From: Bacteroidota bacterium
Lineage (GTDB): Bacteria; Bacteroidota; Ignavibacteria; Ignavibacteriales; Melioribacteraceae
Assembly (NCBI GenBank): GCA_018818165.1
Contig: JAHISP010000010.1
Location: 1-62,404 of the forward strand
DNA: 62,404 bases
Reading direction: 5' to 3'
In this document: one piece after another, positions 11,871-22,400 of the stretch
How positions within the stretch are numbered: position 1 is the first letter of the stretch
Layout of the letters: every line of letters begins with the position of its first letter
Notes under the pieces: model-generated
What the model saw: the letters and a program-made list of their open reading frames with translations, nothing else
The model's database searches: none
What the model was told of the DNA's origin: nothing
Made by a program: the position numbers and the translations under genes

Positions 11871-11892
11871 ATCCAGTGGTAATAATTATCAA

Positions 11893-13086
11893 TTAAAATA
11901 AATTACTAATAATTTTATATGCTCCAACATAAGTTCCAATAGCACTTCCAATTCCACTTAAAAGAAAAACTAATAATATTTTCAGCAATCTATTTTCCCA
12001 CCATTTTTTCCAGTGAGAAACATCTTCTGTTACAGATTCAAATTCCTTTACTTTTGGTGGTTGATAGTAAGCTTGAACGAAAGCTGCAACATATCCAGCA
12101 CCTATTACTGGTGTTAAGCTTGTTATCGGGGCTCCTAAAAATGCTGAAAGAATTGTTAAAGGATGGCCAAGAGCTAAAAGAGCACCAAAAGCACTTGGAA
12201 TTCCATTAGCTAAAATCCAAAATATTACATTATCACCAGCAACATCAGCTCCTTTTGTAAAACCAATGTAAAATAAGGAAGCAATAATAATTGTTGGAAT
12301 TCCATAACCAATTATTTTAATAGCTTTTGAAGGGGAGGGAATTACTTCAATTTCTGATAAATCTTGTTCAAGATTTGATTCAAGTGCTTTAATAATTCCA
12401 TTTACATGTCCAGCACCAACAACGGAAACAATTTTAGTACCATTTGCTTCCTTCATTTTTTGAGTTAAATAACTATCTCGTTCATCAATTAATACTTTTT
12501 TGAGCACTGGCATTTGCTTTCCCATTTCTGCCATCATTTCATTTAAAACGTCTTTTTGTTTTATTTCATCAAGTTTTTCTTCGCTAATTTCTTCTTGCTC
12601 AAATACTGATGCTAAACCGACAGTCATTAATTTAGTTTTTTGCCAAAAACTCATCGAGTTCCAAGCACGTTTTAAAGTAATTCTTACATCTCTATCAACC
12701 AACTCGATTGGTATATTAAATTCCTTAGCAACTTTAGTAGCTTCAAGTAGCTCAACTCCAGGTTTTACACCAAGTTTTTCACCAAGTTTTTTTTGATATG
12801 AAGCTAATAAAATATTTATAAAAAGCGTACTTAGTTGTTTTTGCTTAATTAATTGTTTTAAGTCCAGTTCTTCCCAACGTTTACTTTCTGATAAAGCCTT
12901 ATACCGTTGTGGATCAAGCTCAACACAAACCACATCGGGTTTTTCGTTGGATATAACTTCGCGGACTAAATCAGCAGAATTTTGTGAAATATGAGCCGTT
13001 CCAATTATAAAAAACTCTTTTCCATTAATCTTTAAATAGTGTACGTCTGATGAATATTTTGTTTGTGCAGCTGGTGTGTTTTCCAT
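11893..13086 (-). CDS. TraB/PrgY-family membrane protein
   Basis: The 397-residue protein has an N-terminal TraB domain (about 15-240) marked by IIGTAHISQNSADLV and DVVCVELDPQRYKAL, plus SVVGAGHVNGI near 225. The conserved His and Glu residues in these motifs resemble the metalloprotease-like (Tiki/TraB) fold. Four or five hydrophobic segments follow to the C-terminus, so the N-terminal domain is tethered to the inner membrane. Known relatives include enterococcal PrgY, which limits pheromone activity, but no pheromone or conjugation genes occur here. Its chromosomal role is unknown. It is the last gene of the minus-strand run; a strong hairpin lies between it and the CBS gene upstream. Confidence 0.85.
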   Translation of the reverse strand: MENTPAAQTKYSSDVHYLKINGKEFFIIGTAHISQNSADLVREVISNEKPDVVCVELDPQRYKALSESKRWEELDLKQLIKQKQLSTLFINILLASYQKKLGEKLGVKPGVELLEATKVAKEFNIPIELVDRDVRITLKRAWNSMSFWQKTKLMTVGLASVFEQEEISEEKLDEIKQKDVLNEMMAEMGKQMPVLKKVLIDERDSYLTQKMKEANGTKIVSVVGAGHVNGIIKALESNLEQDLSEIEVIPSPSKAIKIIGYGIPTIIIASLFYIGFTKGADVAGDNVIFWILANGIPSAFGALLALGHPLTILSAFLGAPITSLTPVIGAGYVAAFVQAYYQPPKVKEFESVTEDVSHWKKWWENRLLKILLVFLLSGIGSAIGTYVGAYKIISNLF

Positions 13087-13108
13087 TTAGATAGGTACCT
13101 TGTGATTA

Positions 13109-13140
13109 AAATGCTCCAATTTATTACAATTGGAGCATTT
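13109..13140 (-). terminator. Hairpin between the CBS gene and the TraB gene
   Basis: Perfect 13-bp arms (AAATGCTCCAATT and its complement) enclose a 6-nt loop. On the minus strand it begins 7 bp after the CBS-protein stop and is followed by TTTTAAT, so it probably terminates the CBS transcript at least in part. Confidence 0.7.
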
Positions 13141-13147
13141 GTAATAA

Positions 13148-13615
13148 TTATTTGTTTTTCTTTTCAAATTTCCAATTTTCATAATAGTCAAAGTTAACAA
13201 TTGCATTTAGCTCTTTTAACTCTTTATTTTTATCATTTAGAATTGTCTTAATAATATCGCCAGTAGATAATATTCCAATTATTTTGCCTTCTTTTTCAAT
13301 AAATAAATGTCTAATTCTTTTACCAAGCATTATATCTTGTAAAGCAAATACAGAATTGTTGTGTTGCGCTGTTTTTAATTCAGTTGACATAACATCTTTA
13401 ATTTTAGACGTTTTAGAAAAGAAGCCTTCGGTAACAACGTTAAGCATTAAATCTCTTTCTGTCCAAATTCCAACATAGTTTTCATTATCTTTAATTGCAA
13501 TTGCACCAATTTTCTTTTCCAACATTATTTTTAAAGCATCAGCAACAGTTGCATCTGGAGAAGTAGAAATAATATCATAACTTTTTTCATTTATTATATC
13601 TTCTGCTGTATACAT
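13148..13615 (-). CDS. CBS-domain pair protein
   Basis: This 155-residue cytoplasmic protein consists almost entirely of two CBS motifs: about residues 8-65 (ATVADALKIMLEKKIGAIAI, then YVGIWTERDL) and 72-130 (NSVFALQDIMLGKRIRHLFI, then IIGILSTGDII). Such stand-alone Bateman modules bind adenine nucleotides and often sense energy charge or act as regulatory partners. No catalytic domain is fused. It lies between nagB and the TraB gene on the same strand, but hairpins on both sides suggest a separate transcript. The partner is unknown. Confidence 0.88.
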   Translation of the reverse strand: MYTAEDIINEKSYDIISTSPDATVADALKIMLEKKIGAIAIKDNENYVGIWTERDLMLNVVTEGFFSKTSKIKDVMSTELKTAQHNNSVFALQDIMLGKRIRHLFIEKEGKIIGILSTGDIIKTILNDKNKELKELNAIVNFDYYENWKFEKKNK

Positions 13616-13682
13616 ATATACTCCTAAAAATTTGAGAAAAATATAACTTATCTTAATAAATATGATTTATAAGGATGTGTAA

Positions 13683-13713
13683 GATATAGCATTTATTTAA
13701 TAAATGCTATATC
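13683..13713 (-). terminator. 31-bp palindrome downstream of nagB
   Basis: GATATAGCATTTATT is followed by a single T and its perfect 15-nt complement. It lies 22 bp after the nagB stop (minus strand) and before the CBS gene. No long T run follows, so termination is likely but not certain. A dimeric regulator site for the CBS gene is an alternative. Confidence 0.5.
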
Positions 13714-13735
13714 ATGTATAAATTAAATATCTCCA

Positions 13736-14548
13736 TTAATCTAAAAGCGAATTTGGGTCTAAATTATGAGATTCAATATCCTTGAAATATGCTGCGGTTC
13801 CTACTTTAATTTCCCAAGTTGCATCTTCATCACACACAATTAAGCCTTTAGGATGAGTTTGAAGAGCGCTAACAGTCCACATATGATTTACACCTTCTTC
13901 AATAACTTTTGCCAAAGCGCGTGCTTTATTGTGCCCACAAATAATAATTAAAACTTCTTTTGCATCTAGAACTGTTTTTACTCCAACTGTAAGTGCTGTT
14001 TTAGGCACTTTTGAAATATCATTATTAAAAAATCTTGAGTTAGCAATAATTGTATCTTGAGTTAAAGTTTTTACTCTTGTAAGTGAAGAAAGGGAAGATC
14101 CAGGTTCATTAAAAGCAATGTGACCATCTGGACCAATTCCACCTATAAATAAATGAATTCCACCAAGTTTTTTGATCTTCTTTTCATAGTTTTCGCATTC
14201 TTTTTCTAGATTTTTAGCGTTTCCATTTAAAATATTGATATTACTTTTTTGTATATCAATATGATTAAAAAAGTTATGATACATAAAAGAGTGGTAGCTT
14301 TCGGGATGCTCCTCTGGAATTCCAACATATTCGTCCATATTGAAGGTAACAACATTTTTAAATGAGACAACACCCTTTTTATAAAGTTTAATTAGCTCCT
14401 CATACATCCCAATTGGCGAAGAGCCTGTTGGAAGTCCTAAAATAAAAGGATTTTTAGCAGTTGGTTTAAACTCAATAATTCGATTTGCAATGTAGTTTGC
14501 AGCCCATTTGGATACATTTCCATAATTGGGTTGGATAATTAATCTCAT
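13736..14548 (-). CDS. nagB: Glucosamine-6-phosphate deaminase
   Basis: The 270-residue enzyme interconverts glucosamine-6-phosphate and fructose-6-phosphate plus ammonia in the cytoplasm. Typical blocks are [15 protein letters not shown] (phosphate loop), [18 protein letters not shown] with the catalytic Asp, and [18 protein letters not shown] with the catalytic His. Length matches NagB (about 266). It follows the alternative GlmU-like gene by 98 bp on the same strand, so two amino-sugar enzymes sit together. nagA and a GlcNAc transporter are absent from the window. The upstream gap has a weak AATCAAT hairpin but no good promoter. Confidence 0.95.
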
Positions 14549-14646
14549 GTTAACTCCGATTATTTGTTTTAGTGTATTTTTGTAATATCATTATTCTGTA
14601 TACTAATACATTTTTAATCAATGTTTTTATTGATTATTTAGCTTCT

Positions 14647-15900
14647 TTATTTTGGGAAACCTAGCTTGCGCCTTTCATTAACTGTTAAATCAAAAACTTT
14701 TTTAAAAAGTTCTTTATCAATCTCTGTTAAATTAACGTTTCTTCTTTGCATAACTCTTTCAGCAACCTCAATACTTCTATCAATATCATAAGTCGTTAAT
14801 GCTTCAGAACCTCCCCACGAAAATGAAGGTAAATATTTTGGAGGAAATGTACCACCAAAAACATTACTTGAAACTCCCACAACAGCACCTGTATTAAAAG
14901 AAGTATTTATTGCAGATTTAGAATGATCGCCCATTGTAAGACCCACAAACTGCCTACCACTTTCAATAATTTCATTATTAATTTGAACTTTTATGGTTCC
15001 ATAGTTGTTTTTTAGATCGCTATTAGTGGTTCCAGCTCCCAAGTTAACCCAAGAACCTAAATATGAATTACCTAAAAAACCATAATGTTGTTTGTTAGAA
15101 TAACCATGAATTATTGTATTCTCAATTTCTCCACCAACTTTACAAACTTTTCCAACGCTTGTATTGTGATATATTGTTGCACTCATTTTTATAATTGAAT
15201 TTTGACCAATAAATGCTGGACCTTGAATAGAAGCATTATGCATAATTTGGGTATTTTCTCCAATAAAAATTGGACCATCTTCTGCATCTAAAATTACTCC
15301 TGGTTTTAGTGTTACATTTTTACTAATAAAAATATTATCTGGATTAAGAAAATGTACTTCTGGATAATTTTCTATTTGATTATGATTCGAATATGTAAGT
15401 TTTTTGTAATCATTGATAAGTTCTTCTTCATTATATTTTATTAAATCCCAAGGATATTCAATAATTCGAACGTCAATTTCTCTTTTTTGTAACTTAGGGA
15501 AGTCCGCTATATTAAGAACATCTTTCAATGATTTATTTAATGAATGTAAATTTTTACCGCTGAGGCGAGCTCCGATAAAAGTAGATCCAGAAATGAATAA
15601 TTCGTCCTTCCCTTCAAATGGAATAATTTTATTAAAGTCATCATCAACCAAAATACGCCCATTAATAAATAATGTGTATTCTGATTTTACATGATTAACA
15701 ATTTCCTCTGGATGATTCTGTTTTATTAAATTCCTTAAATATCCTCTTGTGTTTAATTCAACTTTTATATTGGGATAATTACGTCTAATCTTACGATGCA
15801 GAGATAATATTCCGCAACGTAAATTGTAAACAGGTCTAAAAAATGTAAGAGGTTGTAATTGTTGATATTTTTCATCTTCAAAAATGCATATACTTTTCAA
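14647..15900 (-). CDS. Alternative bacterial GlmU-like sugar nucleotidyltransferase / acetyltransferase
   Basis: The 417-residue protein has an N-terminal region opening CIFEDEKYQQLQPLTFFRPV, diagnostic of the GlmU-related family found in Bacteroidota and relatives. Its C-terminal left-handed beta-helix of hexapeptide repeats runs from about 190 to 350 (GPIFIGENTQIMHNASIQGP). The family is annotated as UDP-GlcNAc diphosphorylase/glucosamine-1-phosphate N-acetyltransferase, but the nucleotidyl half is divergent from true GlmU, so the exact reaction is uncertain. The start is TTG at 15898-15900, with AAGGA 8 bp upstream. It lies 56 bp after the DUF4954 gene and before nagB. Confidence 0.82.
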   Translation of the reverse strand: MKSICIFEDEKYQQLQPLTFFRPVYNLRCGILSLHRKIRRNYPNIKVELNTRGYLRNLIKQNHPEEIVNHVKSEYTLFINGRILVDDDFNKIIPFEGKDELFISGSTFIGARLSGKNLHSLNKSLKDVLNIADFPKLQKREIDVRIIEYPWDLIKYNEEELINDYKKLTYSNHNQIENYPEVHFLNPDNIFISKNVTLKPGVILDAEDGPIFIGENTQIMHNASIQGPAFIGQNSIIKMSATIYHNTSVGKVCKVGGEIENTIIHGYSNKQHYGFLGNSYLGSWVNLGAGTTNSDLKNNYGTIKVQINNEIIESGRQFVGLTMGDHSKSAINTSFNTGAVVGVSSNVFGGTFPPKYLPSFSWGGSEALTTYDIDRSIEVAERVMQRRNVNLTEIDKELFKKVFDLTVNERRKLGFPK

Positions 15901-15956
15901 TTTAGTTCCTTATTTTATGTAATAATTAATGAAACACATTAAATATAGTAGATTTT

Positions 15957-17930
15957 TTAAATTAAAAGTTTTAATAATTTATCAGTTACCAAATTGGTTT
16001 TTTCAATTTCCTCTTTTAGTTGTATAGTGAAATTGTTTTCTTGATATGAACCTCTAACATATTTAAAATCTAAATCTCTTGTTTCTTCATCTCCATCAAT
16101 TCCATAACTGATCTTGCTATTGATATCAAATTCCTTTTCAGCATCATTTAAAATCATGTTCAAAAGTTTTAATTTGCTTACACTCCATTCTTTCAAGACA
16201 GTGACTAATACTTCGTTTGAAATTTCAGAATCCGGAGTATATTTTTCTTTTAATAGTAAGGAAAACCAGTCCCAAGCATATGAATAATATGAAATATTAA
16301 TTTTTTCAAACTCATCATTTAGTTGTGAAATAGACTTAATATCCTCATTTATTAAGGCTTTCCTAACACCTTTCCAATCAGATTCTGAAAGATACAAACC
16401 ACCAAGGTCTAACCATTTTTCTCTAAATTTTGATATGTTTTTATTATTTAACTCTCTTTTAATTTCTATAATTGAATTTTCATCTGCATTATCAAGTTTT
16501 CTAATAAGATGTTCTCCAATACCAACTTTAATTCCTAAATCGTAATATTTTTTGCAAGTTTTTAGTAACAATCTCGCAATATGCAATCCCTTGTATTTCA
16601 CATATTCTTTTTCTTTGGAAGTTTCGTTATAAAAATTATCTAAGATATTAAAAGCATTTTCCATTTTCCCAACGATATATGGGGAATAAAAATCGAAATT
16701 GATCTTATCTAATTTTATTTTGGATTTTCGTTTATCTCTTTTTGCCCATTTTTCTGTATCTCTCTTAGTCCCAACAGTAAAAAGATTCATAGCTGGAGTT
16801 AAAACACTTTTTCCATTTTCTTCAGTAATATATGAGAAAGGGAAGTCAGAGGCATCAAAATTATTGAAATGTTTTCCAATTACAACAGAAAAAGGACCAA
16901 CTCTACTTGGAAGAAGCATATATGACATTGAACCAGTTTTAGCACCTCGCTCTAAAACACCCTGATGCACAGGTCCCAGCTTATACATATGATTACTCTG
17001 GTTAGTGCCACTTCCTGCATTATAAAATGAAAAATATGATGCAATTAATAATGTTGATTTGTGATGCGTAACAGTATAAGGACCTGCAAAAATACTACAA
17101 GCTTCACCATGATAGCCTTCACAATTAGCAAAAAAAGCAGAATTTTCGGCTGAGAATTGTTTTCCTAGCTTTGTACTTTCACCAACAAAGCAATTTTCTA
17201 AATTAACGGATGTATCAACTGTTGCACCAGATAGGATAATAAAATTATCGGCAACAACATTTGCTCCAATGTAGGTATGAGAATCTTCGTTACAAATAAT
17301 ACTTCCATTTTTTAATGAAGTAGCATTACAAATAATTGCTCCATCAGCGATATTTACATTTATAATCTCTTTAACATTAGAAATCCTAACATTATTTCCA
17401 ATCATTCCAATATCTGATAAATGGATTTTTCGCTCAATATCACAAATTTTTTTAAGAGAATTTTGTAAATCTTCATCATTTCTATAATTAACCAAAACAT
17501 AAGCAAGTTGTGATGATAAGTTTGGTAAAAGAGGTATTTCTCTTCCTCCACCTTCATTTAGAATTTCAATATTTTTACCTACACCAAAACTATTTAATTC
17601 TGACACAATTATATTATTAACATTTTCAATTATTGTGTTTTCACCAATTGTGTAATTTGATAACGTAGCAACATTAGATATATAAATATTATCATTTATT
17701 TGGCAATTTATAATAGTAGAATTATAAATTCCTGAAGTTTTTTTGATATTATTATGAGCGGAAATTGTGTCTGACAGAATCCCAATTTTAACGTTTCCAC
17801 TAAAATTAACACAAATAATATTGGTTGGTTCAAACTTTTCTTTAACTTTAATATTATTCCAATTATCACATTGGCATCTGTTTTTGAGTAAAATATTAAT
17901 TTCTTTTTCCGTGAGATTTCTATATTCCAT
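15957..17930 (-). CDS. DUF4954 family protein with left-handed beta-helix repeats
   Basis: This 657-residue protein contains many hexapeptide-like strands across about residues 50-380 (GNNVRIS, GATVDTSVNLENCFVG), so much of it should fold as a LbH solenoid like LpxA or GlmU transferases. Conserved-looking stretches include HHKSTLLIASYFSFYNAGSGT and GPVHQGVLERGAKTGSMSYM. The C-terminal third is helical. The family is uncharacterised as far as I know. ATG 17930 has GGAAGGA 7 bp upstream; longer in-frame starts overlap the preceding gene. It sits 20 bp downstream of the ADP-forming synthetase gene and just upstream of the GlmU-like gene, which suggests a role in activated sugar or acyl transfer. 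That role is inference. Confidence 0.8.
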   Translation of the reverse strand: MEYRNLTEKEINILLKNRCQCDNWNNIKVKEKFEPTNIICVNFSGNVKIGILSDTISAHNNIKKTSGIYNSTIINCQINDNIYISNVATLSNYTIGENTIIENVNNIIVSELNSFGVGKNIEILNEGGGREIPLLPNLSSQLAYVLVNYRNDEDLQNSLKKICDIERKIHLSDIGMIGNNVRISNVKEIINVNIADGAIICNATSLKNGSIICNEDSHTYIGANVVADNFIILSGATVDTSVNLENCFVGESTKLGKQFSAENSAFFANCEGYHGEACSIFAGPYTVTHHKSTLLIASYFSFYNAGSGTNQSNHMYKLGPVHQGVLERGAKTGSMSYMLLPSRVGPFSVVIGKHFNNFDASDFPFSYITEENGKSVLTPAMNLFTVGTKRDTEKWAKRDKRKSKIKLDKINFDFYSPYIVGKMENAFNILDNFYNETSKEKEYVKYKGLHIARLLLKTCKKYYDLGIKVGIGEHLIRKLDNADENSIIEIKRELNNKNISKFREKWLDLGGLYLSESDWKGVRKALINEDIKSISQLNDEFEKINISYYSYAWDWFSLLLKEKYTPDSEISNEVLVTVLKEWSVSKLKLLNMILNDAEKEFDINSKISYGIDGDEETRDLDFKYVRGSYQENNFTIQLKEEIEKTNLVTDKLLKLLI

Positions 17931-17950
17931 TATTATCCTTCCAGTTTTTT

Positions 17951-20083
17951 CTAAAGCATAATTTTTGCATCTGCGATATAACATCCCTTATTGATATCTA
18001 ACAAAATTAAAGGGTTTATGTCTAACTCTTTTATTTGTGGCAAATCAATTGCAAGTTCAGATAACTTCGACAAACAATAGTATAAAGATTCAACATCTCT
18101 CAAATTTTTTCCTCTGGCTCCAAAAAGTAATTTTGATGATTTAGTATTTAAAATCATGGATTTAATATCGTGTAAAGACAGTGGGGCAACTCTAAAACTA
18201 ACGTCTCTAAATACTTCAACAAAAACTCCACCAAGTCCATACATAATTACTGGACCGAAAGAATTATCGCGTTTTATTCCCAAAATTACTTCCTCACCTT
18301 TAGGAATCATTTTCCGAACAAGAATTCCCTTTATTTTTGCTTCAGGAGCAAGTTGCATAACATTTTCAATTATTGATGAATAACCTTGAATAACTTCTTC
18401 CCGTGATTGAATGTCTAACACAATTCCATTTACATCAAATTTATGTACAATATCGTCAGATACAATTTTTAAAACTATGGGAAAACCAATCTTTTCAGCA
18501 AAGCTAACCGCTTCTTCTGCAGAACTAGCAACAAAACTTTCTAACACTGGCAGATTATAACAACTTAAAAGTTGATTAGTTTTATCTTCTGTGAGGTAAC
18601 TTTTCTTTTCTTCTAATGCTTCACTCAAGATACTTTTAGCCATTTCAACGTTATTTTGAGTCTTATCTAAATTATATACAGCTCCATTTCTATTTAAATT
18701 TTGTCCAAAATTAAAAACTGAAGTAAATGATTTACTCATTGATTCGGGTAGTGTATAATTGGGTATGTTATTTTTTTCAAGAATCCTAATTCCTGCTGCT
18801 ACATCAGTAGCTCCCATAAAGGAAGTATAAATTGGTTTGGAATTATTTTTACTAACATCTACAATTTCTTGAGCAATTATTTCAATTTCGGTCATGGATT
18901 GTGGCGTAAGAATAACAAATACAGCATCAACATTATCATCTTTCAATGATTCAGTTACAACGAGATTGTATCTATCAGCTTTTGCATCACCTATAACATC
19001 TACTGGATTTTTGATATTTGCAGTTTTAGGAAGGACTTTACTAAATATTGCAGTTGTTTCTTCAGAAAATTTAGCTAATTTTAGTCCATCTTTGATGAGT
19101 GCATCCGTAGTTAAAACTCCTGGACCACCAGCATTAGTAATAATGGATACTCTGTTATTTTTAGGAATTGGTTGATATGCAAATGCAATTGCTGTATCAA
19201 ACATTTCCAAAATATCATTGCATCTTATAATTCCAGCTTGTTCAAAAGCTGCATTACAAATTTCATCACTTCCAGCTAAACTACCAGTATGCGAAGCTGC
19301 TGCCGCTGCTCCTTCATTTGTTCTTCCAGCTTTTATAGCTAAGATTGGTTTACCAGTTTTGGAAATTATATCTTTTGCACAATCCATCAATGCTTTACCA
19401 TCGCTAATTTCTTCAAGATAAAGCAGAATTACTTTTGTTTTTGGATCATCGGCTAAATAATAAAGCAAATCAATTTCACTTATATCTGCTTTATTGCCAA
19501 AACTCACAAATTTTGAAAATCCAATATTTTTTGACTGGGCGTAATCCAAGACAGCAGTGCATAAAGCTCCACTTTGAGAAAGAAACCCGATATTTCCTTC
19601 AGAAGGCATCTTTCTAGCAAACGAAGCATTAAGGTTAACCTTTGGATCAGTATTTATTACTCCTAAACAATTTGGGCCAATAAAAGATATTCCATATTTA
19701 TCAGCTATTTCCTTAATTTGTTTTTCTCTTTCTAGACCAACTGAACCAACTTCTTTAAAGCCTGCTGAAATAATTATAGCTGCTTTTATACCTTTTTGTC
19801 CAAGTTGCTCGAGAACTAAATTGCAAACTGAACTTGGAAACACAACAATTGCTAAATCCACTGGTAGTTCAATATCAATTACATATTTATATGCCTTGAT
19901 GTTTAATATGCTTGTTTCTTTTGGACTAACGGGATATATAATGCCTTTATAATTTGAAATGAGAATACTTTTAACAATATCGTATGGAACAGTACCTTCT
20001 ACATTATTTGCCCCAATTATTGCGATAGATTTAGGATAGAAAACACTTTTAAAATTGTTTTTGTGGATATCACTTTTACTCAC
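17951..20083 (-). CDS. ADP-forming acetate/acyl-CoA synthetase, fused alpha-beta form
   Basis: The 710-residue protein fuses both subunits of the archaeal-type enzyme that interconverts acyl-CoA + ADP + phosphate with acid + CoA + ATP. A CoA-binding Rossmann domain comes first (SIAIIGANNVEGTV), then succinyl-CoA-ligase-like domains with FIGPNCLGVIN and FLSQSGALCTAVLDY. The phosphorylated histidine is His265 in AAASHTGSLAGSD. An ATP-grasp domain covers about residues 480-710 (FPIVLKIVSDDIVHKFDVNGI, DINPLIL). No acetyltransferase domain is attached. The gene is 19 bp downstream of an acyl carrier protein gene and 20 bp upstream of DUF4954. The substrate cannot be deduced; acetate is usual. Confidence 0.9.
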   Translation of the reverse strand: MSKSDIHKNNFKSVFYPKSIAIIGANNVEGTVPYDIVKSILISNYKGIIYPVSPKETSILNIKAYKYVIDIELPVDLAIVVFPSSVCNLVLEQLGQKGIKAAIIISAGFKEVGSVGLEREKQIKEIADKYGISFIGPNCLGVINTDPKVNLNASFARKMPSEGNIGFLSQSGALCTAVLDYAQSKNIGFSKFVSFGNKADISEIDLLYYLADDPKTKVILLYLEEISDGKALMDCAKDIISKTGKPILAIKAGRTNEGAAAAASHTGSLAGSDEICNAAFEQAGIIRCNDILEMFDTAIAFAYQPIPKNNRVSIITNAGGPGVLTTDALIKDGLKLAKFSEETTAIFSKVLPKTANIKNPVDVIGDAKADRYNLVVTESLKDDNVDAVFVILTPQSMTEIEIIAQEIVDVSKNNSKPIYTSFMGATDVAAGIRILEKNNIPNYTLPESMSKSFTSVFNFGQNLNRNGAVYNLDKTQNNVEMAKSILSEALEEKKSYLTEDKTNQLLSCYNLPVLESFVASSAEEAVSFAEKIGFPIVLKIVSDDIVHKFDVNGIVLDIQSREEVIQGYSSIIENVMQLAPEAKIKGILVRKMIPKGEEVILGIKRDNSFGPVIMYGLGGVFVEVFRDVSFRVAPLSLHDIKSMILNTKSSKLLFGARGKNLRDVESLYYCLSKLSELAIDLPQIKELDINPLILLDINKGCYIADAKIML

Positions 20084-20102
20084 AATTACTACCTCATAAA
20101 TG

Positions 20103-20345
20103 TTAGTTCAAATATTCTTGAATAAAATCGACAGCATCTGATACTGTTTGGACATTTAAGGCTTTATTTTCGTCCAATTCAATATCAAATTCCTCTTCAA
20201 ATGCTGCAACAAGTAAAACACTTTGAAGAGAGTCAGCTCCTAAATCAAAAATAAAATTTGCATCATTAGAAATTGATTCTTGGTCAATTTTTAAAACTTT
20301 TGCAATACTATCTTTTACTCTTTTTCTAACTTCGGTAGTTTCCAT
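20103..20345 (-). CDS. Acyl carrier protein
   Basis: The 80-residue protein carries the phosphopantetheine attachment site DLGADSLQSV with Ser39, inside an acidic four-helix protein of normal ACP length. ATG 20345 has AGGAT 8 bp upstream. Longer in-frame starts would add a lysine-rich extension unlike any ACP. No fatty acid synthesis genes surround it; it instead heads the run with the ADP-forming synthetase, DUF4954 and the GlmU-like protein. It may be the housekeeping ACP or a dedicated one. QSV after the Ser (rather than the common DTV/DLV) and its isolated context make a dedicated role plausible. Confidence 0.9.
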   Translation of the reverse strand: METTEVRKRVKDSIAKVLKIDQESISNDANFIFDLGADSLQSVLLVAAFEEEFDIELDENKALNVQTVSDAVDFIQEYLN

Positions 20346-20851
20346 AGATATTATCCTCATGTTTATTTTAAGAAAGTGGTATTTGTAGTTTAAAAGCAAA
20401 ATAAATTAATAATCTAATTCATAAATTTGAAAATCTACTAAATATTAAATGCATAAATGAGCATGTAACTGTCTTAGATGAACAATCTTTTTCTGATGTG
20501 GTTTTCCTCCATGTATAAAGTTTATTAGTTAAATAAGTGTCTTTTGTAAATTCAAAGCCATAATTTGTGATTACTAAACAACAAGATAAACGAACAAAAA
20601 TATTCTATTAAAATATAGATTAATTAATAATAATATGCTTTAAATTAAAAGTTATATTTAATATTAATCGTTTTATACTATAATAATTCTTTTATTTATA
20701 ATAAAAATTGAATATGACCTATTAAACTAAATAGTAGTTTATCTGTTTGTTTAATTATTCGAAAGGATTTTATTTGTGGTATAAATGACAAAACATTTAG
20801 ATAATTCAAAATTATCATTTGTTTTAGTATTCAAAAAAAAAATAATTTAAC
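20346..20851. other. 506-bp AT-rich spacer without a recognised gene
   Basis: I find no open frame with coding character, no tRNA and no long hairpin here before the terminator at 20852. It should hold the promoter of the minus-strand ACP operon, but no good TTTG-N20-TAnnTTT site is evident. A structured RNA without obvious hairpins cannot be excluded by eye. Confidence 0.4.
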
Positions 20852-20881
20852 AAAAAAGCCCAATAATAATTGGGCTTTTTT
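20852..20881 (-). terminator. Bidirectional intrinsic terminator after the POT transporter
   Basis: AAAAAAGCCCAAT, a 4-nt loop and ATTGGGCTTTTTT form a 13-bp perfect stem with A and T tracts on both sides. It begins 16 bp beyond the transporter stop on the minus strand. Confidence 0.9.
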
Positions 20882-20897
20882 ATGCTTTTGATAATAA

Positions 20898-22400
20898 TTA
20901 TTCAATTGCCTTTTTTAATTTTTTTAAAGCAAAGAGAACCATTAATGAAGCCATTCCTGCAAAGAAAATAAGGATTAGGAAAAACTGCCATAATTCCCAT
21001 TGTTGATAATATCTTCCAACAAATCCTGCAAGATAATTACCAATTGCGGTAGCACCAAACCAACCGCCCATTAATAAACCTTTCATTTTTGGGGGAGCAA
21101 CTTTTGAAACAAATGAAAGTCCCATTGGACTTAAATTGAGTTCTGCAATAGTTAGAGCAAAATAAGTTGAAATTAGGAAGAATGGAGAAACGGTAATAGC
21201 AGACTGACCACCATTAAGTGAGTAAACAGGAGCTAATCCTATTGCTGCAACTAACATTATTACATAGGCTAATGCAGTAATTAACATACCAATTCCAATC
21301 TTTGCTGGTGAAGAAGGTTCTAAACCACGTTTATTTAAGTATGCAAATATTCCTACAACAACTGGAGTCATTAGAACAATAAACATTGGATTGAAGACTT
21401 GAAATTGTTCTGGTGAAATGTTTCCCATTTCAGGAAGTGTATTAATTTTATAAATTAGGGTAGCAACACCAACAATAGCAAAGCCTGCACCAATTGATTT
21501 ACTTTTGGAAGAAGAAGATTTTTTTAATGCAACAGTAGTTCCAAGAATAATAAAAAGAATTGCATGCAATCCTATAACATCAAAAAGAAGGAATAGAAAT
21601 TTGCCAACCTCTGGGTCTGTGTAGTCTCGTGCAAAAAGTGAAAGTGCTGCACCATTTTGGTGAAAAGCCATCCAAAAGAAAATAACAATTGCAAAAATAG
21701 TTAGCAACGCAAAAACTCTGCTTCTTTCTTGTTCTTTTGTTAAAACTAAATCTTTTTCATCATTTGTGACATGTTTAGATTGGTAATCAGCGTCTTTATA
21801 ATATTTTTTGAAAGTTGTAAAAATTATTAGAGAAATGACCATTCCAGCTGCAGCAACAGCAAAACCGGCATTATATCCTTGTGCTAAAGTTGCGCCATAA
21901 TTTTCTACAAAAAAGTTTTTTATTCCAACTGCTGCAAAAGGGGCATAAAATGCACCAATGTTTATACCCATATAAAATATGTTAAATCCAGAATCTTTTA
22001 AAGATAATTGCGAATGGCTGTATAAATTACCTACAAGAACAGAAATATTTGCTTTAAATAAACCATTTCCAATAGCAACTACTGCTAAAGCAGCAAACAA
22101 TAAATATGGTTCTGATGTAGGAATTGCCATCATTGAATATCCAATTCCCATAGTAATTGCCCCGAGTATAATAGTTTTTCCATATCCGAGAACATTATCT
22201 GCAATCCATCCGCCAATAATTGGAGTAAAATAAACTCCGGCTAAAAATATTCCATAGATATTTGTAACAGTAGCAGAATCCCATCCGAAACTTTCTTGTA
22301 AATAGAAAACAAATATTGCTATCATTGTGTAGAAACCGAATCTTTCCCACATTTCAGTAAAGAAGAGTACAGGTAACCCCTTCGGGTGATTTTTGAACAT
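20898..22400 (-). CDS. POT-family proton-dependent oligopeptide transporter
   Basis: The 500-residue inner-membrane protein has about 12-14 hydrophobic segments. The first helix carries FTEMWERFGFY, the ExxERFxYY proton-coupling signature of POT/PTR symporters. The second family signature is at FNIFYMGINIGAFYAPF, and a loop GGWIADNVLGYGKTI follows helix 2. These import di- and tripeptides with protons. ATG 22400 has a perfect AGGAG site 6 bp upstream; the longer frame from 22472 lacks one and adds a non-membrane leader. It is a single-gene unit closed by a strong terminator. A second, divergent POT-like gene is at 38705-40243. Confidence 0.93.
   Translation of the reverse strand: MFKNHPKGLPVLFFTEMWERFGFYTMIAIFVFYLQESFGWDSATVTNIYGIFLAGVYFTPIIGGWIADNVLGYGKTIILGAITMGIGYSMMAIPTSEPYLLFAALAVVAIGNGLFKANISVLVGNLYSHSQLSLKDSGFNIFYMGINIGAFYAPFAAVGIKNFFVENYGATLAQGYNAGFAVAAAGMVISLIIFTTFKKYYKDADYQSKHVTNDEKDLVLTKEQERSRVFALLTIFAIVIFFWMAFHQNGAALSLFARDYTDPEVGKFLFLLFDVIGLHAILFIILGTTVALKKSSSSKSKSIGAGFAIVGVATLIYKINTLPEMGNISPEQFQVFNPMFIVLMTPVVVGIFAYLNKRGLEPSSPAKIGIGMLITALAYVIMLVAAIGLAPVYSLNGGQSAITVSPFFLISTYFALTIAELNLSPMGLSFVSKVAPPKMKGLLMGGWFGATAIGNYLAGFVGRYYQQWELWQFFLILIFFAGMASLMVLFALKKLKKAIE

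Follow-up and report, generated by a model that had tools for sequence, protein, structure and literature searches.

We analyzed a stretch of 62,404 nucleotides (the window; contig JAHISP010000010.1 of assembly GCA_018818165.1, positions 1 to 62,404) from a Bacteroidota bacterium of the family Melioribacteraceae, and concentrated on a block of five minus-strand genes. These encode an acyl carrier protein (ACP), an ADP-forming acyl-coenzyme A (CoA) synthetase (ACS), a DUF4954 protein, a GlmU-like protein and the glucosamine-6-phosphate deaminase NagB. Gene calls and profile scores placed all five where an earlier sequence-only reading had put them (Table 1); the limits given there correspond to an ACP start at 20345 and to the NagB stop at 13736. 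The block is best explained as a laterally exchanged operon built around DUF4954. Since hairpins flank the five genes, they are likely to form one transcription unit; the gaps along it, from ACP to NagB, are 19, 20, 56 and 98 bp. A pattern scan for terminator-like sites returned 3, hardly more than the mean of 2.4 in shuffled sequences.

The ACP scored 58 bits to PF00550 and 73.2 bits to TIGR00517 (cut-off 70.45), and retains the attachment serine in the motif GADSLQS. The ACS contains CoA_binding_2, Succ_CoA_lig, Ligase_CoA_2 and ATP-grasp_5 domains (Pfam) and matches PDB entry 8wzu with 570 bits. Its SHTG motif, whose histidine we take to be the phospho-histidine, is kept in all 30 clustered ACS proteins, the window's included. 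The ACS lies below the equivalog cut-offs for 4-hydroxybutyrate-CoA ligase (NF045493, 675.1 against 1300) and acetate-CoA ligase (TIGR02717, 533.8 against 567.15), and NCBIfam thus does not fix its substrate. The DUF4954 protein scored 593.7 bits to PF16314 (gathering cut-off 26.2) and carries PF20683 (DUF6819) at its C-terminus. Scores were likewise well above cut-off for the GlmU-like protein (TIGR03991, 433.3 against 225.3) and for NagB (TIGR00502, 431.7 against 236.9), which has the motif FNMDEY and a second, 10-residue motif, both presumably catalytic.

Table 1 Features of the five-gene block and its surroundings (window positions).
Feature	Position	Strand	Basis
Acyl carrier protein (ACP)	20103-20360 or 20103-20345 (two possible starts)	minus	PF00550, TIGR00517
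ADP-forming acyl-CoA synthetase (ACS), fused alpha and beta, motif SHTGSLAG	17951-20083	minus	Pfam domains
DUF4954+DUF6819 protein, 657 aa, left-handed β-helix core and helical C-terminal domain	15957-17930	minus	PF16314, PF20683
GlmU-like protein, alternative bacterial GlmU, copy foreign to this genus	14647-15900	minus	TIGR03991
NagB, glucosamine-6-phosphate deaminase, the genus's resident gene	13736-14548	minus	TIGR00502
Segment differing from sister genome G297	13714-20851	no strand	blastn
Hairpin directly downstream of the five genes	about 13682-13713	minus	RNA fold z -4.4; inverted-repeat match
Terminator-like hairpin between PTR2 and ACP, just upstream of the unit	20850-20883	minus	z -5.0

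We explored the neighborhoods of DUF4954 in named genomes, taking the best 80 of 593 relatives found with the DUF4954 protein, and in 20 stretches from the window's own phylum. A DUF4954 open reading frame was present in the gene calls of 79 named loci (all but L086), and neighbors were counted within four genes on either side. NagB was found in 33 of the 79 loci (on the same strand in 31), ACS in 23 and ACP in 23, while Pta together with AckA occurred in eight (not contiguous in L115). An HMGL-like enzyme, resembling homocitrate, citramalate or isopropylmalate synthases, was present in two named loci and two of the own-phylum stretches, and GlmS stood beside DUF4954 in three named loci. Gene adjacency around DUF4954 exceeds chance.

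These neighbors form an ACP-ACS-DUF4954 module, which usually has NagB between ACS and DUF4954. Loci titled Spirochaetales, Sumerlaeota, Neomarinimicrobiota, Ignavibacterium, Prolixibacteraceae and others have the genes in the order ACP-ACS-NagB-DUF4954, usually separated by short gaps, and complete or partial modules come from loci with the titles Spirochaetes, Sumerlaeota, Calditrichota, Neomarinimicrobiota, KSB1, Ignavibacteria and Bacteroidota. Across these phyla, DUF4954 is about 45–51% identical to the window's. Co-occurrence beyond close strains, raised by the sequence-only reading for all five genes, thus holds for ACP, ACS, DUF4954 and NagB and fails for the GlmU-like gene. The window's GlmU has no relative in the clusters of DUF4954 neighborhoods (loci L038-L137) and is instead a lineage-specific neighbor, paired with NagB in relatives that lack DUF4954. 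The locus combines an ACP-ACS-(NagB)-DUF4954 module with an ordinary TIGR03991 GlmU.

Loci without the module are mostly from Bacteroidales, where DUF4954 often adjoins genes of the DnaN, RNase Z, RadA or HflX clusters, each annotated in a single representative; two Bacteroidales-titled loci, L080 and L085, do have it. GntR/HutC regulators adjoin the module in three loci and ROK/NagC-like regulators lie upstream of it in three (one annotated in each case). A ROK/NagC-like gene (annotated in L064) and a NagB-like gene of about 770 aa precede ACP-ACS-NagB-DUF4954 in L064, L065 and L072; the L065 NagB-like gene scored 172 bits to PRK02122, below cut-off. A Spirochaetales locus (L073) encodes a 501-aa GlmU-like protein directly downstream of DUF4954 (12134-13639). 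A third DUF4954 subfamily (L048, L056) keeps a GSNH motif and adjoins dehydrogenase-cluster genes, which in L048 match inositol and glycoside dehydrogenases weakly.

Comparison with the window's closest relatives indicates how its locus was assembled. In the genus-mate G296 the order is PTR2-GlmU-NagB-CBS-TraB, without ACP, ACS or DUF4954, and the PTR2, NagB, CBS and TraB proteins are 84–86% identical to those of the window. The nearer sister, G297, has a single resident-type GlmU between PTR2 and the CBS gene and no NagB at this site. Its locus (L172) aligns by blastn to the window's flanks with 97.7% (20852-22344) and 88.8% (11886-13714) DNA identity, and inside the differing segment only to part of GlmU (14684-15335, 70% of nucleotides). 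The GlmU closest to that of the window comes from G302, an 88% complete genome with no DUF4954 match, and shares 78% identity with it; those of four genus-mates (G296-G299) share 48–52%. The window's NagB groups with those of G296 and G298 (support 100/97), among non-module NagBs, and the other four genomes of the genus have at most a weak partial DUF4954 match. Judging from these comparisons, ACP, ACS, DUF4954 and a foreign GlmU now stand beside the genus's own NagB. Base composition was rejected as a sign of transfer, the GC content of the block (0.24–0.33 per kb) being like that of its flanks.

More widely, all 16 non-module NagBs of the phylum fall into one well-supported set (99/95), which leaves out 32 of 38 module NagBs. 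Across 19 loci with ACP, ACS, NagB and DUF4954, the window included, the distances of ACP, ACS and DUF4954 correlate with one another (rho 0.36–0.46), and NagB distances correlate weakly with those of ACS (0.28). We take this to mean that ACP, ACS and DUF4954 form a putatively mobile core, which either retains a NagB or acquires one.

We next consider the DUF4954 protein itself, whose structure was predicted with 58 relatives as a monomer (predicted local distance difference test score, pLDDT, 90; predicted template modeling score, pTM, 0.90). The sequence-only reading of DUF4954 as a β-helix protein of the acyltransferase type is borne out by the predicted model, and the aligned sequences share an invariant polar core. 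The left-handed β-helix matches ydcK, QdtC, the GlmU acetyltransferase domain, LpxD and LpxA with Z scores of 12–17. The GlmU domain (2v0j) superimposes with 1.8 Å over 179 residues (Z 14.4, below ydcK and QdtC), a fold match that by itself demonstrates no function for DUF4954. The fold of the C-terminal domain was uninformative (best Z 7.8 over 58 residues, no clear PDB match). There are 64 invariant columns across 59 DUF4954 sequences, and the most conserved stretch is about 264-345, including the low-confidence loop 308-320. Invariant His, Arg, Lys and Asn residues cluster in one stretch and are partly common to the subfamilies. Among 97 positions conserved at 95% in the 59 sequences of the window's subfamily, 44 are also conserved in ≥80% of 15 sequences from other subfamilies, including E276, P284, H289, H290, S312-N313-H314, R328, G329, R390, K394 and R398.

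The neighbors of DUF4954 point to glucosamine-6-phosphate (GlcN-6-P), the metabolite made by GlmS and consumed by NagB. In a DUF4954 subfamily of about 740 aa, 9 of 13 genomes have GlmS immediately upstream of DUF4954 (not G033, G126, G078 or G305, with only 1.5 kb of flank examined for G126), while NagB is the usual partner of the window's subfamily of about 660 aa. The link to amino sugars drawn by the sequence-only reading thus stands for DUF4954, which is tied to the amino-sugar phosphate genes NagB and GlmS; the window's own NagB is not of the module type.

The acyl group is suggested by the supply enzymes, of which three types occupy the same place in the module: ACS, Pta plus AckA, and the HMGL-like enzyme. 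ADP-forming ACS and Pta plus AckA do the same job, converting an acid to its acyl-CoA with ATP. The replacement of ACS by Pta plus AckA is the best clue that an acetyl or propionyl group is involved, and suggests that the activated acid is acetate (or propionate). A sphingolipid-type pair of serine palmitoyltransferase and reductase was considered for the 400- and 328-aa neighbors and rejected, since they were identified as AckA and Pta. The window's genome has a second, stronger ACP (at C85; 106 bits, against 73 for the module ACP). An ACP of 62–83 bits lies at the DUF4954 locus in nine of the ten DUF4954-positive genomes searched, the exception being G120 with a single ACP elsewhere, and seven of those nine, the window's genome included, have a second ACP above 100 bits. 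None of four DUF4954-negative genomes has an ACP in the 62–83-bit range. We regard the module ACP as a dedicated one, which probably receives or carries the acyl group.

Thus, we tentatively propose, with somewhat less than even confidence, that DUF4954 N-acetylates GlcN-6-P and draws on acetate activated locally, which the dedicated ACP may carry. The analysis itself shows what the genes are, that the module is conserved, that ACS is exchanged for Pta plus AckA, that GlmS or NagB is linked to DUF4954, that its predicted fold is of the acyltransferase type and that the site is empty in the sister genome. ACS, or elsewhere Pta plus AckA, would activate acetate with ATP, and the dedicated ACP would probably receive or carry the acyl group. 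DUF4954, most likely a β-helical N-acyltransferase for hexosamine phosphate, would then convert GlcN-6-P and the activated acetyl group to N-acetylglucosamine-6-phosphate (GlcNAc-6-P). NagB would connect GlcN-6-P with fructose-6-phosphate and ammonia, and GlmU would convert the product to UDP-N-acetylglucosamine (UDP-GlcNAc) after mutase action. The substrate and the acetyl group are inferred, as are what the ACP does and which way the flux runs.

The distribution of GlmU bears on this proposal. Among 296 genomes sampled from the phylum, 276 have a TIGR03991 GlmU and 22 a strong DUF4954 match (both at E ≤ 1e-30). DUF4954 is present in 5 of the 20 genomes that lack TIGR03991 GlmU and in 17 of the 276 that have it (Fisher p 0.010, ignoring kinship; p-values are optimistic, since genomes within a family do not count as independent). 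In families f20, f23 and f32, all 11 DUF4954-positive genomes have a weaker TIGR03991 match (E 2.9e-109 or weaker) than all 11 negatives (1.4e-116 or better), although these families were chosen after the scores had been seen and GlmU divergence is confined to families carrying the subfamily of about 740 aa. We aligned GlmU from ten of these positives and three of the negatives. The Tyr of the NYG-type motif is lost in all ten positives and the His of GDHSK in nine, and five are shorter than 370 aa; the three negatives (398–403 aa) keep both residues. Among 14 control genomes, DUF4954 matches were found in Bacteroides ihuae and Sulfolobus acidocaldarius, one of the two over cut-off, and every control except B. 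ihuae matched TIGR01173 at E 1e-25.

Three further patterns were considered and rejected. Strict complementarity of GlmU and DUF4954 fails because many genomes hold both and 15 of the 20 without TIGR03991 GlmU hold neither. A lone GlmU N-terminal half does not mark DUF4954, as it also occurs in the DUF4954-negative G133, G189 and G288. A UAP1-type pyrophosphorylase (PF01704) is not its partner, with matches in 4 of 52 genomes and the sole strong one in the DUF4954-negative G302 (G302:C42:6587-7807, 429.7 bits). Families f41 (seven genomes) and f38 (four) lack TIGR03991 GlmU, a bifunctional canonical GlmU over cut-off and DUF4954. The window's genome (G000) encodes a second GlmU-like protein of 505 aa (G000:C61:54164-55240), with 163 bits to TIGR01173, below cut-off.

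A number of observations weigh against an acetyltransferase role for DUF4954. Foldseek by itself returned no match to the model with an E-value <0.001, and loop 308-320 has a pLDDT <50. In addition, other subfamilies do not keep 53 of the 97 conserved positions, including K317, H322 and K331. With only 44 shared, the two subfamilies may not have the same chemistry, and the GlmS link might not hold for the window's. DUF4954-positive genomes in the families with the window's subfamily (f1, f2, f3 and f10) keep a normal GlmU of 410–448 bits (for example G000, G120, G200, G216, G243 and G267), and in the window's genome an intact-looking GlmU lies in the same operon as DUF4954. The 15 genomes with neither TIGR03991 GlmU nor DUF4954 also lack a bifunctional canonical GlmU over cut-off. 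Such a GlmU is absent alike from 27 of 27 DUF4954-positive and 25 of 25 negative genomes, and its absence is therefore a trait of the group; one other search likewise found it in none of 21 genomes, and another in none of 16 named DUF4954 genomes of unstated completeness, two of which have the N-terminal half only. The remaining points concern the module. In most Bacteroidales loci, DUF4954 is surrounded by housekeeping genes, with no ACP or ACS nearby; its core function can therefore do without either. NagB distances do not track those of DUF4954 (rho 0.02) or ACP (0.01), and in G306 and G307 no ACP outscored that of the module (69.9 and 69.5 bits), a second ACP not being found there.

Alternatively, the module could be catabolic. 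GlcNAc-6-P or a related N-acyl amino sugar would be deacylated, with DUF4954 as the deacylase or as an acyl shuttle to the ACP, NagB would feed glycolysis, and ACS or Pta plus AckA would recover acetate. This agrees with the usual, catabolic direction of NagB and with the presence, close to some modules, of NagC-like or GntR/HutC regulators and of long NagB-like genes, and 6 of 14 positives of the window's subfamily have NagB but no NagA over cut-off (G000, G078, G120, G135, G230 and G238). However, NagA over cut-off is present in 8 of the 14 positives and in 7 of 12 negatives whose NagB is over cut-off (8 counting G296, at 223.8 against 225.65). With such similar shares, DUF4954 does not track NagA loss, and a role as NagA replacement was rejected. 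The GlmS genes adjoining the subfamily of about 740 aa suit synthesis better, and acetyl transfer from an amide to a thioester is uphill. We consider the catabolic route unlikely. In the window's genome, a NagA-like match (152.7 bits, below cut-off) lies near a NagB-like frame with one internal stop (G000:C33:14765-19255), perhaps part of another amino-sugar pathway.

DUF4954 could also be a regulatory or scaffolding hub that adjusts GlmS, NagB or GlmU in response to GlcN-6-P, UDP-GlcNAc or acyl-ACP, without catalysis. Its best PDB profile match, although weak, is to an eIF2B subunit (E 0.007), its large helical C-terminal domain lacks a clear PDB match and its partners vary. The invariant columns with their clustered His, Arg, Lys and Asn residues look catalytic, and make a purely regulatory role improbable. 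Least probable is the synthesis of a sugar nucleotide with an unusual acyl group by all five genes, as the sequence-only reading had it: the dedicated ACP, the LpxA and LpxD fold matches and the foreign GlmU beside ACP-ACS-DUF4954 in the window's genome would suit it, but GlmU lies outside the module elsewhere, the block has no glycosyltransferase or modification gene, no gene points to such an acyl group or sugar nucleotide, and the substitution by Pta plus AckA indicates acetate (or propionate).

Bacteria of the Fibrobacteres-Chlorobi-Bacteroidetes (FCB) group and spirochaetes need UDP-GlcNAc for their walls. An acetyltransferase of the kind proposed here would matter for this pathway. A 2020 survey describes apparent gaps in the UDP-GlcNAc pathways of the FCB group and Spirochaetes: several genomes have lost GlmS or GlmU, and Chlorobaculum limnaeum lacks the acetyltransferase domain of GlmU; the part of the survey considered here names no substitute (PMC7725333). 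An essential product with incomplete pathways leaves enzymes unaccounted for. A DUF4954 protein of Treponema pallidum appears by name, without a function, in the consulted part of a further paper (PMC6953169). Searches of open-licence papers by family name, by gene set and for GlmU loss in Bacteroides or Treponema found no description of the module. TIGR03991 GlmU fills the gap in 276 of the 296 sampled genomes, and DUF4954 is a candidate for acetyl transfer in some of the others; the module is suggestive of a separate supply of acyl groups by way of a dedicated ACP. More broadly, DUF4954 might be the missing glucosamine-phosphate N-acetyltransferase in part of the Bacteroidota, Spirochaetes and their relatives, its operon form using a private acetyl-ACP loaded directly by the ADP-forming ligase or by Pta, a doubtful extension that would, if true, place ACP-dependent acetylation of a phospho-sugar within central cell-wall metabolism.

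Comparison with known systems indicates what is shared and what differs. The GlmU acetyltransferase domain (TIGR01173 or TIGR03991) shares the β-helix core (Z about 14) and the amino-sugar phosphate context with DUF4954, which differs in its extra helical DUF6819 domain and its own invariant core, and has no NCBIfam model match at E 0.001 and no nucleotidyltransferase domain by Pfam. LpxA and LpxD, acyl-ACP-dependent acyltransferases, have the β-helix fold in common with DUF4954, for which ACP use is a proposal; their acyl supply comes from fatty-acid synthesis rather than acetate activation, and there is no sequence match to them (Pfam, NCBIfam). Eukaryotic GNA1, a GlcN-6-P N-acetyltransferase, catalyzes the reaction that we propose for DUF4954, presumably with a Gcn5-related N-acetyltransferase (GNAT) fold, whereas DUF4954 is β-helical in the model. 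Finally, the window's NagB and ADP-forming ACS are ordinary members of their families by domain, score and motif but, unlike the known ones, are grouped here with a private ACP and DUF4954.

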